Part shown: one piece after another, positions 2,436 to 16,088 of the stretch
Layout: each line of letters begins with the position of its first letter
Numbering within the stretch: the first letter of the stretch is position 1
Virus record (IMG/VR): IMGVR_UViG_3300047557_004377
Location: 1 to 23,498 of that record
Direction: 5' to 3' (one strand)
DNA length: 23,498 nt
Source: a virus
The notes under the pieces: generated by a model
Databases searched by the model: none
The model's input: the letters and a program-made list of their open reading frames with translations, nothing else
What the model was told of the DNA's origin: nothing
Position numbers and translations under genes: made by a program

Positions 2436-3554
2436 TCAAGCCGAAGAACAGAAAGCTATACTAGTTGCACCAAAGGTTAATGCTTGCGAAGGGTCATTGA
2501 CTTTTGCTCCAAATCCTGTGCCAGAGTTGAAATTGTAAACAGAAATATAAGGTGAAGAATTATAGCCTATTGCAATAAGTTTTCCACTTGATGAAAAGTT
2601 CACAGAAAAACCAATTCCTGTTGGCAGGGTAGTGGGGTCTGCATATTTTGTGCCAAATCCTGTACTTGTATTAAAAGGATAGCAATATATGTAAGGACTT
2701 AAATCATAACCAAATACAACATCTGCACCATTAGGACTTATAGCAACATCTCTAGATAAGTTTCCGGTAGGAGCTCCCCCAGGCGTGGAATATAGGGTTC
2801 CAAAACCGGTGCCTGAAGTGTATCGATAGGCTTGAAAAGCTGAAATAGCTATTACGCTTCCGCTGAATGTATTGCCTGAATTCGTTTGTAAAACAGCATT
2901 TCCACTAGTGTGAAAACGACACGCTTTTCCAGAAGCATTTAATGTGCCATTGGTGTATTTAGTTCCAAACCCTGTAGAAGAATTCCAGGCGTAGGCATCT
3001 ATAGCCCTTGCCCCAATGGCCCCGCCATTGCTATATGCAATATCATTGCCACCAGGAGAGAAAGATACTCCAGATACGTTGCCAGTAGGAAAACTAGATG
3101 GATTTGAATACTTTGTTCCAAACCCAGTAGTTGAGTTCCATTGATATGCGTGTATTTGGCTGCCTGTGCCGGCAAATGGTTGATTTCCTAGAAGAACCGC
3201 ATTGTTGTTGGGGTGGATGCTTATGTCAAAACATTGCGAGGCATCTGCGGGAAGCGTAGAGGGATTTGAATATCTAGTACCAAATCCAGTGCCTGCTAAG
3301 TACTGATAAGCTACGCAAAAAGGGCTACTATCTACAGCCAATAAAATTGCATCTTTAGTTGGTGTGACTACAATCTTATTTACCATTCCTGGTGGAAGGG
3401 TTGCAGGGTTTGAGTATCTAACTCCAAATCCTGCTGAAGATATTGGATAAGAATAAATATACGGAGAAACACCTAAGCCTATGATTATGTCTTCTGCCGG
3501 TCCTACGGCGGCACCCGCTGCTCCCATCGCAACTCTTGTCGAAATAGGGTCCAT
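2436..3554 (-). CDS. Seven-repeat beta-propeller-like adhesin
   Basis: 372 residues. After a short N-terminal segment (about 1-30) the protein is built of seven imperfect repeats of roughly 50 residues. Each carries a G-F-G-x-K/R-Y-S/T-N-P-x-x-L-P-x-G motif followed by a short strand pattern such as VSFSPGGNDIAY and then an aromatic strand such as SPYIYCYPFN. Seven units with an SP-x-G/N-x-x-(V/I) strand are typical of WD40/YVTN-like beta-propellers. The ATG at 3554 follows the TAA of the short anchor protein (3558-4178) after three bases, so the pair is probably made together, with the anchor joining the propeller to the tail. The role as receptor-binding or glycan-binding adhesin is inferred; the repeats are seen directly. 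Confidence 0.75.
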   Translation of the reverse strand: MDPISTRVAMGAAGAAVGPAEDIIIGLGVSPYIYSYPISSAGFGVRYSNPATLPPGMVNKIVVTPTKDAILLAVDSSPFCVAYQYLAGTGFGTRYSNPSTLPADASQCFDISIHPNNNAVLLGNQPFAGTGSQIHAYQWNSTTGFGTKYSNPSSFPTGNVSGVSFSPGGNDIAYSNGGAIGARAIDAYAWNSSTGFGTKYTNGTLNASGKACRFHTSGNAVLQTNSGNTFSGSVIAISAFQAYRYTSGTGFGTLYSTPGGAPTGNLSRDVAISPNGADVVFGYDLSPYIYCYPFNTSTGFGTKYADPTTLPTGIGFSVNFSSSGKLIAIGYNSSPYISVYNFNSGTGFGAKVNDPSQALTFGATSIAFCSSA

Positions 3555-3557
3555 GGC

Positions 3558-4178
3558 TTATGTCGTGTAGTTAATCAAGGAAGACCCACGCCAACGGCTA
3601 CCACCATCATCTGTTAAAAACATGAATAGGTGTGTCTTGCCTGTTGTGAGTGTTGGTGCGGTACCGCCGGGCCATTCTAAACCGCTGAACCAGGTAATCG
3701 TACCACTGGTATGAACCACTTCTAATGTAAAGGAATAAGCAGATCCAGAGGCTGGTGCATTAGATACTGTAAATGTACTACTGCCTGTGATTGTTTTGAT
3801 GTAGTAATTACCAGATGTGCAGTCAATGTTTAATGCAGAAACAGTTCTTGCAGTTGCTTGATAAGCGGCGCTCACGTTTAATTGACCAGATTCACTAACT
3901 GTTAAACGACTAACCCCACTGGAACTTAATCCAACTTGGTTTGTCGCTGGAGAATATAAACCGTTTTGCGGTATACCAGAACCGGTGACAGTTATGCCTG
4001 AAGCGGTAACCAAATTAGAAATTGTTCCGCTTGTACCAACAATGTGTCCGCCGCTTACTGTACCTGTTGTTGTTACACCTGGGAATTGACCATTAAAAAC
4101 ACTACTGATTGTTGCAGTCGTATCCGTGCTATTTGAAGTATAGAGAATATAGTCAACCGCTAAAGTTCCGTAAGCCAT
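3558..4178 (-). CDS. Short tail-fibre anchor protein B
   Basis: 206 residues. The N-terminus (MAYGTLAVDYILYTSN…GTVSGG) is shared with the proteins starting at 1534 and 7637. A second shared motif with the 1534 protein is the x-x-NGLYxPxxNxVxxS stretch near residues 90-110. The C-terminal 70 residues (EWPGGTAPTLTTGKTHLF near the end) resemble the end of the 7637 protein (a PGGS…PSLTATSG motif), a pattern common in phage tail tip and fibre proteins. It starts with ATG at 4178, 35 bases below the TAGAAT of an AT-rich box, and is followed at once by the propeller gene. The likely role is a virion adaptor that holds the adhesin. Family-level function is inferred from composition and context. Confidence 0.7.
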   Translation of the reverse strand: MAYGTLAVDYILYTSNSTDTTATISSVFNGQFPGVTTTGTVSGGHIVGTSGTISNLVTASGITVTGSGIPQNGLYSPATNQVGLSSSGVSRLTVSESGQLNVSAAYQATARTVSALNIDCTSGNYYIKTITGSSTFTVSNAPASGSAYSFTLEVVHTSGTITWFSGLEWPGGTAPTLTTGKTHLFMFLTDDGGSRWRGSSLINYTT

Positions 4179-6992: not shown

Positions 6993-7637
6993 TTACGCCT
7001 TAATATCTTGTACTAAACGATAAGCAATAGTACTTGAATTAATAACATAATACGCCAGAACATCAACTGCTCCACTGGTGGCAGTTAATGAGGGAACGCT
7101 TCCGGATCCCCCTGGATATCGCCAGTTAGAGCCAAAGGCCATTGTGTTGCCCGAGCTGCCTTGAATAATTGTAAGTATCCCTGCTTGTCCTGAAACTAAA
7201 TTGGATGGATTTTGAAGAGTAGTATTACCTGTCAATGTTAATTGAAAATTATTTCCACTGTTTAAATCAATTGCAACCCCAGTCGAATACGTAAGCGTAT
7301 TAACTAATCCCCTCTGTCCTCCACTAAAAGTTTGAGCTCCAGATAAAACCGCATAACCAGGTATAGATGTTGCGTTAATAGTTCCAAAGTTACCGGTTGT
7401 ACCAGTTACTGTATTAAAAGTTCCTGTTGTACCAGTTACTGTACTAAACGAACCAGTTGCACCGGTTACTGTTCCTACAAATGCGCCACTATTTGCAGTA
7501 AGGTAATGACCACTCAATGTGCCAGTTGTGGACATGTTGGGGAACTGTCCATTAAAAAGGCCGCTAAAAGACCCTGTTACACCAGTGCCATTGTTTGTAT
7601 ATCTAATAAAATCGACCCCTAGTGTTCCGAAAGACAT
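6993..7637 (-). CDS. Short tail-fibre anchor protein C with 10-residue repeats
   Basis: 214 residues. The N-terminus (MSFGTLGVDFIRYTNNG…FNGQFPNMSTTGTLSG) is clearly related to the protein starting at 4178 (FNGQFPGVTTTGTVSG) and more distantly to that at 1534. Residues about 54-90 are three to four copies of a 10-residue unit like F-x-T-V-T-G-T-T-G-x, encoded by 30-base DNA repeats. The end (GSNWRYPGGSGSVPSLTATS, then AVDVLAYYV) is a beta-rich tail-protein motif shared with the 4178 protein. It starts with ATG at 7637, 35 bases below a TAGAAT box, and is coupled to the LamG adhesin. The likely role is as virion anchor for that adhesin. Confidence 0.7.
   Translation of the reverse strand: MSFGTLGVDFIRYTNNGTGVTGSFSGLFNGQFPNMSTTGTLSGHYLTANSGAFVGTVTGATGSFSTVTGTTGTFNTVTGTTGNFGTINATSIPGYAVLSGAQTFSGGQRGLVNTLTYSTGVAIDLNSGNNFQLTLTGNTTLQNPSNLVSGQAGILTIIQGSSGNTMAFGSNWRYPGGSGSVPSLTATSGAVDVLAYYVINSSTIAYRLVQDIKA
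7391..7478. repeat. 30-base in-frame tandem repeat
   Basis: Three units with a 30-base period, each containing GTTG(T/C)ACC(A/G)GTTACTGT, start near 7396, 7426 and 7456. They encode the T-V-T-G-x-T-G decapeptides of anchor protein C. Because the period is a multiple of three, slippage would change shaft length without breaking the frame. Confidence 0.75.
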
Positions 7638-12970: not shown

Positions 12971-13327
12971 ATGCATAGCTCTGCTGATTACCGCGACGGT
13001 CTCGGTCAAAACATCATTGACGAAGTAATGTGCCGTTGTCTGAACCAGGCAACATTCGGTACTCAACTCGACAATGAAGAAAATGATGTGCCATTATATG
13101 ATCAGTACAATCGCGGATTGACGTTATGCGAGGACGGAATTCCAAGGCGGAGCCTGGAGATCGAGGGGGCACGGCCTGGAATGACGGGATTTATTCCGTC
13201 GATGGAGGAAGCAATGGAGATGTACCCAGCTTCATCGCCACGACCGAAGACGATGATGATGGACTTGGGCGAAGCACCGGAAATGGAAATGATGCTGTCG
13301 CAGAAAAGACGTGGTTTGCTCCGGTAG
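12971..13327 (+). CDS. Unknown Met-rich protein overlapping the DUF3310 gene
   Basis: 118 residues from ATG at 12971, with AGGA about ten bases upstream. The first half is ordinary (SSADYRDGLGQNIIDEVMCR, LDNEENDVPLYDQYNRGL). The second half is rich in methionine and proline (GMTGFIPSMEEAMEMYPASS, KTMMMDLGEAPEMEMML) and ends in a basic tail (QKRRGLLR). Its last 200 bases overlap the frame of the DUF3310 gene as opened from 13126. Either both frames are used or DUF3310 begins further in. I do not recognise the family. It is the first plus-strand gene after the convergent pair. Confidence 0.6.
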   Translation: MHSSADYRDGLGQNIIDEVMCRCLNQATFGTQLDNEENDVPLYDQYNRGLTLCEDGIPRRSLEIEGARPGMTGFIPSMEEAMEMYPASSPRPKTMMMDLGEAPEMEMMLSQKRRGLLR

Positions 13328-13668
13328 ATGATACCGTTTTTGCTCTAACCGATACTGCTGTCGATCTTTCTATCTTGCCTGGATTTTCTTCTGAATGTAA
13401 AGACGGTATATGCCCAGTGCCCTGGGCCGTCAAGGAAGAGGCACCCTTGGTTCAGCCGGACCAGGTGAATCGTCCTCCGCACTATACCGATGGCGGTATT
13501 GAAACAATTGAAGCGATTGAGGCACAGTTGTCCCAGGAAGAGTATGAAGGTTATTTGCGGGGAAACTGTGTAAAATATCTTTGGCGCTGGCGGAACAAAG
13601 GCGGTGTACAGGACCTTGAGAAATGCCGCTGGTATTTAGACAGGTTGATACAGACACAAGAAATCTAG
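13126..13668 (+). CDS. DUF3310 (SaV-type nucleotide-kinase-like) protein with replaced C-terminus
   Basis: The C-terminal 70 residues are a clear DUF3310 domain: VNRPPHYTDGGIETIEAIEA, then GNCVKYLWRWRNKGG and DLEKCRWYLDRLIQ. Such small phage proteins are associated with nucleotide metabolism and DNA modification, though their reaction is not settled. The first 100 residues of this open frame (from an ATG at 13126) are acidic and low-complexity and overlap the previous gene by 200 bases, so the true start is uncertain; a TTG near 13447 behind AAGGAAGAGG is an alternative. The last codons (TQEI, stop at 13668) appear to have come with the HNH gene behind it, because a second, differently coded WYLDRLIQ lies at 14239. 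The domain call is firm; the start is not. Confidence 0.75.
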   Translation: MRGRNSKAEPGDRGGTAWNDGIYSVDGGSNGDVPSFIATTEDDDDGLGRSTGNGNDAVAEKTWFAPVDDTVFALTDTAVDLSILPGFSSECKDGICPVPWAVKEEAPLVQPDQVNRPPHYTDGGIETIEAIEAQLSQEEYEGYLRGNCVKYLWRWRNKGGVQDLEKCRWYLDRLIQTQEI

Positions 13669-13719
13669 TTTTATTGATGGGCAGGCTGTGGTACTATGTG
13701 TTGATCGGCAAAAATCTCT

Positions 13720-14235
13720 GTGAAACACAGACCACTACCATCTCAAGAGGAATTAAAAAATCTTTTTATCTACGATGAAACCAATGGGAGGTTAATATAC
13801 AAAAAACCTCCCTGCCCTAATTTAAAAAATAAAGAAGGAAAACCTGCTGGATCAAAACATAAAGAAGGTGGTTATCAAGTTTGTTACAAACGCAATGTTT
13901 ATTTGCACTGTCGACTTGTTTGGGTTTATGTGCACGGCACTGATCCTGCAGAATTAGAAATAGATCATATAAATGGAAATAGAGCTGATGATCGAATTCA
14001 AAATTTACGTCTTTCTACAAGGGTAGAGCAGCAATGGAATGTTGGGAAAACCAAAAGAAACACAAGTGGTTACAAAGGGGTAAGCTTTTACAAGCGTCTA
14101 AACAAATGGCGTGCCGATATCAGAATAGAAGGTAAGCAGAAAAATCTAGGTTATTTTGAAACTATAGAAGAAGCCAATAACGCTTACCAAAAAGCAGCTG
14201 AAGATTTACATAAACATTTTAAAAACAATAAATAA
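13720..14235 (+). CDS. HNH homing endonuclease with C-terminal AP2 DNA-binding domain
   Basis: 171 residues from a GTG start at 13720. Residues about 60-100 hold an HNH_3 core (CRLVWVYVHGTDP, then EIDHINGNRADDRIQNLRL) with the paired H and N ligands. Residues about 112-165 form an AP2 domain (SGYKGVSFYKRLNKWRADI, then GYFETIEEANNAY). This HNH-AP2 pairing is typical of free-standing phage homing endonucleases, which cut a phage gene lacking them and spread by repair. The coding sequence is visibly more AT-rich than its neighbours, a sign of transfer. It sits exactly between the DUF3310 gene and a displaced copy of that gene's end, so it is a mobile insertion. Catalysis is inferred from the intact motifs. 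Confidence 0.88.
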   Translation: MKHRPLPSQEELKNLFIYDETNGRLIYKKPPCPNLKNKEGKPAGSKHKEGGYQVCYKRNVYLHCRLVWVYVHGTDPAELEIDHINGNRADDRIQNLRLSTRVEQQWNVGKTKRNTSGYKGVSFYKRLNKWRADIRIEGKQKNLGYFETIEEANNAYQKAAEDLHKHFKNNK

Positions 14236-14238
14236 TTG

Positions 14239-14286
14239 TGGTACCTGGACCGTCTCATTCAGTTTGACGAAGCTCAAAAAGGCTGA
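14239..14286 (+). pseudogene. Displaced ancestral C-terminus of the DUF3310 gene
   Basis: Three bases after the HNH stop, the plus strand reads WYLDRLIQFDEAQKG and a TGA at 14284-14286. WYLDRLIQ is the same octapeptide found at the end of the DUF3310 protein (13630-13653), but six of the eight codons differ, all synonymously (the TGG, GAC and CAG codons are unchanged or nearly so). There is no start codon, so it is a remnant. It overlaps the stop of the convergent NblA-like gene by 13 bases, probably the original arrangement. Confidence 0.8.
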
Positions 14287-14573
14287 AGTTCATCGTCGTC
14301 GTCATCGTCATCAATAAGGCATGCGGCGGCGAGTTCCGCTAGTTCCAAGTCGGTGGGAATGTCAAATTCAATATTGACATTCTCATCGGCCATTAAAGAT
14401 TTAACGGCGTACCATTCCATCAGGCGTTGGTGGTACAGATTCAATAGTGCGGCATATAGTTGCTCCCAGGTCATCTCTTGCGCCTGAAGCTCTGCTTTGC
14501 GCATTGAGAATTGAAGCTCTAAAGGAAGCTCAAATTGGTGTGGTTCAACCGATCTGTCCATTCCTGGTTTCAT
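14274..14573 (-). CDS. NblA-like phycobilisome degradation protein with acidic tail
   Basis: 99 residues. Residues about 14-62 (FELPLELQFSMRKAELQAQE then MTWEQLYAALLNLYHQRLM, AVKSLM) follow the NblA pattern: L-x-L/V-E-x-QF, a helix, M/L-S/T-x-E-x-L, a second helix with a Q-x-x-M/L stretch, and a basic residue near the end. NblA is a small two-helix adaptor that binds phycobilisomes and brings them to Clp protease; phage versions are known. Unlike host NblA of about 60 residues, this one continues with an acidic 37-residue tail ending in seven aspartates. It lies between the DUF3310 remnant (convergent, 13-base overlap) and endolysin. The similarity is from memory of the family, not a search. 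Confidence 0.6.
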   Translation of the reverse strand: MKPGMDRSVEPHQFELPLELQFSMRKAELQAQEMTWEQLYAALLNLYHQRLMEWYAVKSLMADENVNIEFDIPTDLELAELAAACLIDDDDDDDELQPF

Positions 14574-14575
14574 AC

Positions 14576-14598
14576 TTCAATTGAAACTATTCTAAGAC
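14576..14598 (-). promoter_or_regulatory. Recurring AT-rich box, copy 4 (diverged)
   Basis: The plus strand TTCAATTGAAACTATTCTAAG resembles copy 3 (TTCAATTTAAAACAATTCTAA). The minus-strand TAGAAT (14594-14589) is 16 bases before the ATG at 14573 of the NblA-like gene. It fills the 24-base gap after the endolysin stop. Confidence 0.4.
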
Positions 14599-15263
14599 TA
14601 AATGTCACAGATGCCTTGGAGGCCAAATTCTTCGTACTCGGAAGAGCACCAGGGATCCTCATCGATTTTGAAGCAGTTGGCAAATTCAGAAAGCGTATAA
14701 GGATTAATGGATTCTTCTAGCATACGGATCGCGCGTACTTGGTGTGGCGCTGCGCTGTAGTTACGGAATGCCGTCAAGAGAATCTCAGTTGAGATCCAGG
14801 GATTGTCATTGACCTGACGCAGGAAAAGATTGACCTCTTCTTGCCTGCGATGCAGAAGTGCACCAACCATTTTGTGGTCTTGATCAAAAACCCACTTGGG
14901 AATCTCTTGGCTTGCTCCCCGCCAATCTTCCTGTTCAAGGCAATCGATAATATTGCTGTACAGAAAAGAGTTCCAACCTACGGAGTGAACAAAAGAAAGT
15001 AGGGCTTGATGCATCGAGTCATCAAGGCCCAGGTTTAGTTTCTTCAGCTCTGTATCCAGTACTTCTAACTCGTGGTACAGATACTCCAGCGCTTTGCGTT
15101 TGGTGCAGAGATGACCGCTTCTTACTGGAGAGCCGTCTGGATAAAACTGCGTGCCATAACCAATTGTGTATGGTTCACATCCAGTGTTTGGATCTGGGTA
15201 AGCCTTTTCGTTATACCCTTCGTACTTTCTGATTAGTTCAATTGCTGCAGAAAAATCAGACAT
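14598..15263 (-). CDS. T4-type endolysin (GH24 lysozyme) with C-terminal extension
   Basis: 221 residues from the ATG at 15263 (MSDFSAAIELIRKYEG). A TTG at 15287 would add eight residues but lies inside a hairpin. The T4-lysozyme site is intact: E15, eight residues, D24, then T33 in YTIGYGT, so it should cut the glycan of peptidoglycan. The second helical lobe follows (LGLDDSMHQALLSFVHSVGW, RRQEEVNLF). The last 60 residues (INPYTLSEFANCFKIDEDPW) are an unassigned extension, perhaps a cell-wall or regulatory tail. No signal peptide is visible, so export would need a holin. It is downstream of two small phage genes. Confidence 0.88.
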   Translation of the reverse strand: MSDFSAAIELIRKYEGYNEKAYPDPNTGCEPYTIGYGTQFYPDGSPVRSGHLCTKRKALEYLYHELEVLDTELKKLNLGLDDSMHQALLSFVHSVGWNSFLYSNIIDCLEQEDWRGASQEIPKWVFDQDHKMVGALLHRRQEEVNLFLRQVNDNPWISTEILLTAFRNYSAAPHQVRAIRMLEESINPYTLSEFANCFKIDEDPWCSSEYEEFGLQGICDI

Positions 15264-15430: not shown

Positions 15431-15718
15431 TTACCAGTTGTAGTTGCAGGCCCACCATCCGGGAGTCAGTTTGTTCTTCTTCTCGGAGCAGTTGTGCCTG
15501 GCCTTGAAGTTAGCACGTCTTCCCTCGTCCTTATGCTGAAGATAATCTTTATATCCCCTGGCACCAAACCGGACAATTGCCTCCTTGCCGTCTTGGCAGG
15601 CCTTGACCACATACTTATGCTTATCGCCTTTTGGCGCGCGCTGGGGTTTGTTGCATGCCATCTTATCCTTCTGATACCGCTTGGCAGCTGCAACTGCTTT
15701 CTTCGGTTTGTCTGCCAT
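15431..15718 (-). CDS. Small conserved phage protein (DUF5754-like)
   Basis: 95 residues. A basic N-terminus (ADKPKKAVAAAKRYQKDK) is followed by a conserved-looking core KHKYVVKACQDGKEAIVRFG and GYKDYLQHKDEGRRANFKAR, ending HNC…TPGWWACNYNW. The core fits a small protein family (DUF5754-like) found in many phages and giant viruses with no known function. The closely spaced Cys and Trp residues at the end suggest a compact fold. The ATG at 15718 lies inside the 3' end of the HNH gene (56-base overlap). The family name is from memory and moderately sure. Confidence 0.7.
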   Translation of the reverse strand: MADKPKKAVAAAKRYQKDKMACNKPQRAPKGDKHKYVVKACQDGKEAIVRFGARGYKDYLQHKDEGRRANFKARHNCSEKKNKLTPGWWACNYNW

Positions 15719-16088
15719 AGCTAATCGGTACTAAAGAATGTTTTCTATCTTCTTCCCAATGCAATAACTGGAAAGGATCCTGATCAATCCATCTTTCAAT
15801 TCTATTTAACCTAGCTTTGGAAAAAAAATCTTGGTTAATATACCATTCGTGCAATTTGTACGATGCCTTCGAAGCATTGCAACGGCGGCATGCGGGAACA
15901 AGGTTCTTACGTGTGGTCTCACCTGACTTGTGCCTTGGCACAACATGGTCTAAGCTTGTTGCACTTTCGCCGCAATAAGCACATTCGTGGTTCCAGGATT
16001 TGTATATCTCATCTCTGAATCTTTTCTTTGCTAACTTTGGAGTGACTTCAACGAGTAGGGCAATGGGCTCATGCTCGCTGTAATACAT
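15663..16088 (-). CDS. Free-standing HNH endonuclease
   Basis: 141 residues. The HNH site is complete: C36-x-x-C39, D47-H48, H53, N62 and C67-x-x-C70-N71 (ECAYCG, SLDHVVPRHKSG, KNLVPACRRCNASKA), so a zinc-stabilised beta-beta-alpha nuclease is expected. The C-terminal part (LHEWYINQDFFSKARLNRIE, then RWIDQDPF) is helical. The last 18 residues, read across the next gene's start (QTEESSCSCQAVSEG), look unlike protein core and may be a chance run-on. This layout suits a homing-type or packaging-associated nuclease. The ATG at 16088 is 23 bases below an AT-rich box. It has no AP2 domain, unlike the nuclease at 13720. Confidence 0.85.
   Translation of the reverse strand: MYYSEHEPIALLVEVTPKLAKKRFRDEIYKSWNHECAYCGESATSLDHVVPRHKSGETTRKNLVPACRRCNASKASYKLHEWYINQDFFSKARLNRIERWIDQDPFQLLHWEEDRKHSLVPISYGRQTEESSCSCQAVSEG

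Follow-up and report, generated by a model that had tools for sequence, protein, structure and literature searches.

The HNH-AP2 unit located behind the DUF3310 gene of the window (the whole stretch of DNA analysed, 23,498 nt) probably represents a homing element that exchanges the 3′ end of the host gene for its own version, a reading to which we assign a probability of roughly 0.83. The insertion, its direction, its exact junctions, the exchange of the 3′ end and the occurrence of several independent events can be read from comparison of the sequence with that of nuclease-free relatives. The mobile unit would comprise a class II DUF3310 3′ part together with the HNH-AP2 gene and extend from 13497 to about 14237.

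Gene organization of the locus

The window comes from an uncultivated virus record (IMG/VR IMGVR_UViG_3300047557_004377) and all loci compared were metagenome-assembled contigs; the element was found in no isolate. The local gene order (dCTP deaminase, a small reverse gene, DUF3310, a convergent nblA-like gene and lysozyme) matches that of the freshwater Synechococcus phage S-EIV1, and the virus is a cyanophage of the freshwater type. The DUF3310 gene (13126–13668, forward strand; PF11753, PHROG 'nucleotide kinase' families) is chimeric: its 5′ part is the phage's own, and its 3′ part (13497–13668, forward strand) is imported class II sequence, which ends in WYLDRLIQTQEI and forms the left part of the mobile unit. 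It is followed on the same strand by a leader reaching from the DUF3310 stop to the nuclease start (13669–13719), an intact HNH_3 + AP2 nuclease gene with a GTG start (13720–14235), the right junction (14238–14239) and the displaced class I 3′ end of DUF3310, i.e. the remnant (14239–14286), which reads WYLDRLIQFDEAQKG-stop. The last 13 bases of the remnant overlap the convergent gene (14274–14573, reverse strand), an overlap that had been noted before; this gene is NblA-like (phycobilisome degradation protein), with a PF04485 match just above the cut-off. The S-EIV1 gene in the nblA position (L246, KJ410740, 1403–1723) is annotated only as 'hypothetical'.

Empty-site relatives and the exchanged 3′ end

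Relatives were found by scanning viral contigs with the DUF3310 protein. Two of them, L003 and L005, lack the nuclease and carry a single-copy, uninterrupted DUF3310 gene. The results showed that their left flanks share 94–95% identity with the window as far as position 13496 or 13520 and that identity resumes on the right at 14238, at 96–97%. In L003 an identity of about 95% stops after 13496, and in L005 identity over the exchanged stretch falls to 47–67% per 30 nt. Between the matching flanks, both contigs hold only a continuous DUF3310 3′ end of the other sequence type, and the proteins end in ...KKAQWYLDRLIQFDEAQNG or ...WYLDRIIQFDEAQNG. An uninterrupted gene in relatives without the nuclease is what the sequence-only reading had predicted, and the gene ends FDEAQNG there; no TQEI end occurs among the distinct insert-free alleles listed. 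The remnant shares 45 of 48 bases with the tails of L003 and L005, in agreement with the earlier proposal that the ancestral end had been pushed downstream, and identity with the empty relatives starts at the G of CAG|TGG in the empty site. The nuclease was therefore gained and not lost, since the remnant corresponds to the tail that is intact in the empty relatives.

The short repeat from which the locus was first recognized was confirmed by direct reading. The DUF3310 gene ends at 13630–13668 with WYLDRLIQ, TQEI (ACA CAA GAA ATC) and the stop codon TAG. The octapeptide returns three bases past the nuclease stop (TAA at 14233–14235, then TTG), and there the second copy (14239–14286) continues with FDEAQKG (TTT GAC GAA GCT CAA AAA GGC) and TGA. 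The two octapeptide stretches have the codons TGG, GAC and CAG in common and differ, exactly as reported, in five (TAT/TAC, TTA/CTG, AGG/CGT, TTG/CTC and ATA/ATT), so that 16 of 24 bases agree; the similarity is above chance, with a local alignment score of 49 against a mean of 24.4 and a maximum of 35 for shuffled sequences.

The idea that synonymous recoding had kept the target protein intact did not survive the comparison. Instead, about the last third of the protein, including most of the DUF3310 domain, has been swapped for that of another allele class. The difference from the ancestral gene starts at 13497, just 3′ of the conserved motif VNRPPHYTDGG, spans the approximately 45 codons preceding the octapeptide with many amino-acid changes and takes in the remaining DUF3310 domain. 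Class I (ancestral, ..CKGNLIKYGWRERMKGGTESLKKAQ) and class II (present, ..LRGNCVKYLWRWRNKGGVQDLEKCR) agree at about half of the residues of this stretch. The sequence-only reading had thus caught the tail of a larger allele swap, and the eight identical residues are the most conserved motif of that swap. Its suggestion that the mobile gene brought along a divergent target end of its own is supported; the difference is, however, not confined to eight synonymous codons. PF11753 scored above the cut-off in carrier and empty alleles alike (67.5 bits in the window, 66.7 in L005 and 63.2 in L086).

The same replacement in other phage lineages

The same nuclease, with 76–95% protein identity, was found in three further lineages (L006, L038 and L085/L086/L087), and all carrier lineages have a class II DUF3310 end 5′ of the nuclease and a class I-type remnant 3′ of it. 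The L038 remnant is identical to the tail of the empty L211 (48/48), the flanks of the two being 98.6% and 98.2% identical. Likewise, the L086/L087 remnant equals the L173 tail (48/48), with flanks at 93–97% in the related empty phages L167–L173, and the L006 remnant agrees with the L093 tail at 46 of 48 bases. The right junction lies at the identical base in all four carrier backgrounds: L038 and L086 are perfectly identical to the empty allele from ACAG|TGG onward towards nblA, and the window matches from the same G. Comparison of the window with the other carriers gave identities for the DUF3310 3′ end and the nuclease of 0.93/0.93 (L006), 0.80/0.82 (L038) and 0.71/0.72 (L086), and for the two flanks of 0.85 and 0.87, 0.69 and 0.74, and 0.60 and 0.69, respectively. 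These near-equal values, above those of the flanks, imply that the DUF3310 3′ end and the nuclease travel together.

Trees were built from 1.2 kb of upstream flank, 1.15 kb of downstream flank and the 129-nt 3′ part. The upstream tree required at least four changes for nuclease presence and the downstream tree at least five, and a single carrier clade was rejected by both (p-AU 4.6e-51 and 6.6e-46, respectively). In the 3′-end tree, the AU test rejected grouping of the window with L003/L005 (p = 5.7e-07), of L038 with L211 (p = 2.1e-05), of L086/L087 with their own empty relatives (p = 0.0015) and of L020, which carries a different nuclease (see below), with L026 (p = 9.9e-05). The comparisons show that the 3′ end was replaced independently at least four times among these related phages.

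A single ancestral insertion followed by vertical inheritance, with the two octapeptide copies diverging in place after a local duplication, would fit the identical layout of all four carriers. It is refuted by the flank trees, in which one carrier clade has a p-AU under 1e-45, together with the match of the remnants to their own empty relatives (48/48, 48/48 and 45/48); uninterrupted relatives at 95–98% identity also speak against it, and we give this explanation hardly any credence. As every record is a metagenome contig, an assembly chimera of two phage strains was also considered; since the same junctions were seen in contigs of several independent metagenomes (L002, L006, L038, L085, L086 and L087), such an artefact is extremely improbable. 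L086 and L087 are 99% identical upstream, and downstream L086 groups with the empty L170 and not with L087; recombination to the right of the element seems to be ongoing there.

Distribution of the nuclease over the allele classes

Among 139 distinct DUF3310 ends, inserts were found in 0 of 98 class I alleles whose nblA junction was visible and in 15 of 37 class II alleles (Fisher p = 3e-10, a value that ignores relatedness and query choice, as the counts are not independent and some of the queries were carriers). Seven bases near the junction that are 92–100% conserved in class I (at −18, −17, −12, −6, −5, −1 and +12 relative to the W codon) are changed in every HNH-AP2 carrier, the pattern that would be expected of a resistant donor allele, short of proof. 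The nearest relatives of L006 by flanks, the L013 group, have a class II end without the nuclease, indicating that class exchange also occurs with no nuclease present now. In the pairs L006/L013 and L020/L026, flanks are 93–99% identical and the DUF3310 ends differ, sometimes with no nuclease.

Exchange between class I and class II ends in near relatives that lack the nuclease, as in L006 versus L013, and the existence of 22 distinct class II alleles without an insert would be in line with ordinary homologous exchange between co-infecting phages, the nuclease being a passenger behind some class II alleles and not the driver of its own transfer. However, such exchange would put the right crossover anywhere within the tail or nblA, whereas the observed junction falls at one base in four backgrounds, with the recipient's tail directly behind the nuclease. 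Purifying selection on the nuclease and the presence of at least three nuclease types at one spot further weigh against a passenger role, and we consider it unlikely. Class II alleles that lack a nuclease may represent resistant variants that spread by themselves.

The nuclease gene and its leader

The HNH_3 domain of the nuclease scored above the Pfam cut-off and its DHINGN motif is intact; the AP2 domain reached 32.9 bits against a cut-off of 33.3. With a dN/dS of 0.08–0.14 among carriers, the gene is intact and, as judged from this ratio, under purifying selection. No relatives of the nuclease were found in the PDB by sequence, an NCBIfam search gave no hits, and a consensus scan detected no sigma-70 promoter 5′ of the gene. 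Behind the related HNH-AP2 genes of three annotated phages checked (Klebsiella RCIP0045, KpV52 and Felix O1), no such remnant layout was seen.

The leader contains a 7-mer, GTGGTAC (13688–13694), that is the same as the 7-mer at the insertion point (14238–14244). This 7-mer is kept in all four lineages though the rest of the leader has diverged, with a chance expectation of about 0.2–0.4% per leader. It could be a putative binding site for self-repression, by analogy with what is known for I-TevI, or it could be what remains of an older insertion.

The arrangement had been described as intron-free, and this was borne out: Rfam gave no match at all at E up to 1 across 13100–14700, and the approximately 90 nt outside the nuclease reading frame are too little for a group I core. 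The second copy might otherwise have been regarded as a downstream exon or readthrough extension, with an intron or stop-codon readthrough joining WYLDRLIQFDEAQKG to a longer product, since in all four carriers the remnant shares the frame of the nuclease stop and is free of internal stops. However, the domain is already completed by the upstream copy and the nuclease has a stop codon in all carriers. The intron was dropped because nothing was found in Rfam, and the readthrough product because it had no support; either is a very remote prospect. Recent insertion accounts for the intactness of the remnants.

Proposed route of homing

From the sequence pattern we infer that class I is cut, that class II is resistant and that repair takes the following route. 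In a mixed infection, the nuclease would cut a class I DUF3310 allele near the codons KAQ|WYL, and the carrier genome would serve as the template for repair of the break. On the left side, resection would proceed back about 130–170 bp, so that the class I 3′ end of the recipient would be lost and the class II end of the donor copied along with the nuclease, the left join falling in the conserved stretch 3′ of VNHPxHY. On the right side, repair would resume at the cut, the displaced class I tail and nblA serving as homology, and the recipient's own tail would consequently persist 3′ of the nuclease as a remnant. The outcome would be a full-length chimeric DUF3310 gene plus an unused remnant. 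Because the cut site in this gene differs from that of class I, it would presumably no longer be cut; as the DUF3310 gene of the carrier runs uninterrupted through the presumed site, resistance would have to arise from sequence difference and not, as in inteins, from interruption of the site. The presumably sensitive class I and presumably resistant class II alleles offer a ready target for cleavage tests of HNH-AP2.

Other nucleases at the DUF3310/nblA junction

L020 and its relatives carry an endonuclease VII-type gene (PF02945; L020:5486–5938) whose start overlaps the DUF3310 stop. Compared with the empty class I L026/L027, the flanks of L020 are 99.4% and 99.8% identical and the 3′ end is exchanged; besides the DUF3310 3′ end, about 120 nt of nblA are converted too. 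On this comparison, a gene unrelated to HNH-AP2 has made the same replacement in L020. A further HNH type (phrog_3106) is found at the same spot in L043 (5447–5908) and L196, and in antisense in L180 (3315–3746) and L204, so that at least three nuclease types occur at this junction. In L203, the junction is occupied at 3360–3677 by phrog_507, a protein of unknown function. The closest empty relative of L196, L047, is of class II; this hints, short of proof, that the nucleases differ in the alleles they attack.

Comparison with known homing systems

In the WHO elements of Torulaspora and Lachancea yeasts, the nuclease lies behind the host gene and its cleavage is proven; homing swaps the 3′ end of the host gene for a resistant donor version, and the old end persists as a fragment downstream (Coughlan et al. 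2020, PMC7282813). The FBA1 fragment has been proposed as the right homology, and resistance through sequence difference has been shown for WHO6 and FBA1 (PMC7282813). The window shares with these elements a nuclease gene directly behind a full-length chimeric host gene, the displaced former 3′ end downstream of the nuclease, discordant 3′-end and flank trees, and the coexistence of empty and filled alleles. WHO elements encode an HO-like intein-zinc finger (LAGLIDADG-type) nuclease at a nuclear aldolase gene, whereas the window has HNH-AP2 at a phage DUF3310 gene, and, unlike in WHO, the remnant is only 48 bp long and overlaps a convergent gene. The window element appears to resemble WHO in its working; by its nuclease domains (HNH_3 + AP2) it is not a member of the WHO family.

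Mobile ORFs of fungal mitochondria also swap gene 3′ ends, as in atp6 of Allomyces and in atp6, atp9, cox2 and nad3 of Glomus (PMC3630166). As in the window, a foreign C-terminus is in frame, followed by a nuclease gene and the native C-terminus displaced downstream; the native copy clusters with relatives and the inserted copy does not, and nucleotide divergence far exceeds protein divergence. They differ in residing in mitochondrial genomes and encoding LAGLIDADG or GIY-YIG nucleases (PMC3630166).

The free-standing seg and mob genes of T4-type phages are, like the nuclease of the window, phage nuclease genes near conserved genes, and by the account of 'intronless homing' in PMC2988022 they are passed on during mixed infection, flanking DNA being co-converted. 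The same account gives one-sided conversion tracts for the intron enzyme I-TevI, which remains attached to DNA on one side of its cut, a precedent for the one-sided conversion proposed here. As set out in its passages on these genes, the cut site typically lies away from the insertion site of the nuclease and the layout described has no displaced host-gene 3′ fragment, both unlike the window. F-CphI of cyanophage S-PM2 is described in PMC6083498 as an endonuclease VII-type free-standing homing endonuclease that targets psbA; it shares the Endo VII motif with the L020 nuclease, whereas the window's own is HNH_3-AP2. It is generally assumed that recipients turn resistant through the replaced sequence (PMC12724721).

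In the open-access literature searched, no phage precedent was found in which the 3′ end of a gene had been replaced and its former end displaced as a remnant. The earlier statement that the layout is not often recorded is thus apt for phages within that literature, but not beyond them, the same layout being known from the yeast WHO elements and fungal mitochondrial genes. We lean, by a modest degree, towards the view that phages independently evolved WHO-type elements made up of a nuclease and a resistance-conferring host-gene 3′ end, and that several nucleases (HNH-AP2, endonuclease VII-type and another HNH type) compete for the DUF3310 3′ end, which would lead to continual C-terminal replacement and to nuclease-free 'resistant' alleles spreading alone. 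Such elements would extend to viruses a homing design of yeast nuclear and fungal mitochondrial genes and would explain the mosaic evolution of the C-terminal part of one phage gene. The locus constitutes a natural experiment that has preserved filled as well as empty alleles, base-exact junctions and several independent events.

Other features of the window

A second HNH gene (PF01844, reverse strand, 15663–16088) lies beyond the lysozyme gene, and the segment 15428–15638 gave no alignment to the near relative L005, though both sides align. In the tail-fibre-like region, the predicted proteins at 176–1534, 3558–4178 and 6993–7637 resemble one another in an N-terminal stretch (MxxGxxxxDxxxYT and then a G/S/T-rich part) and look like paralogues with swapped C-terminal parts.
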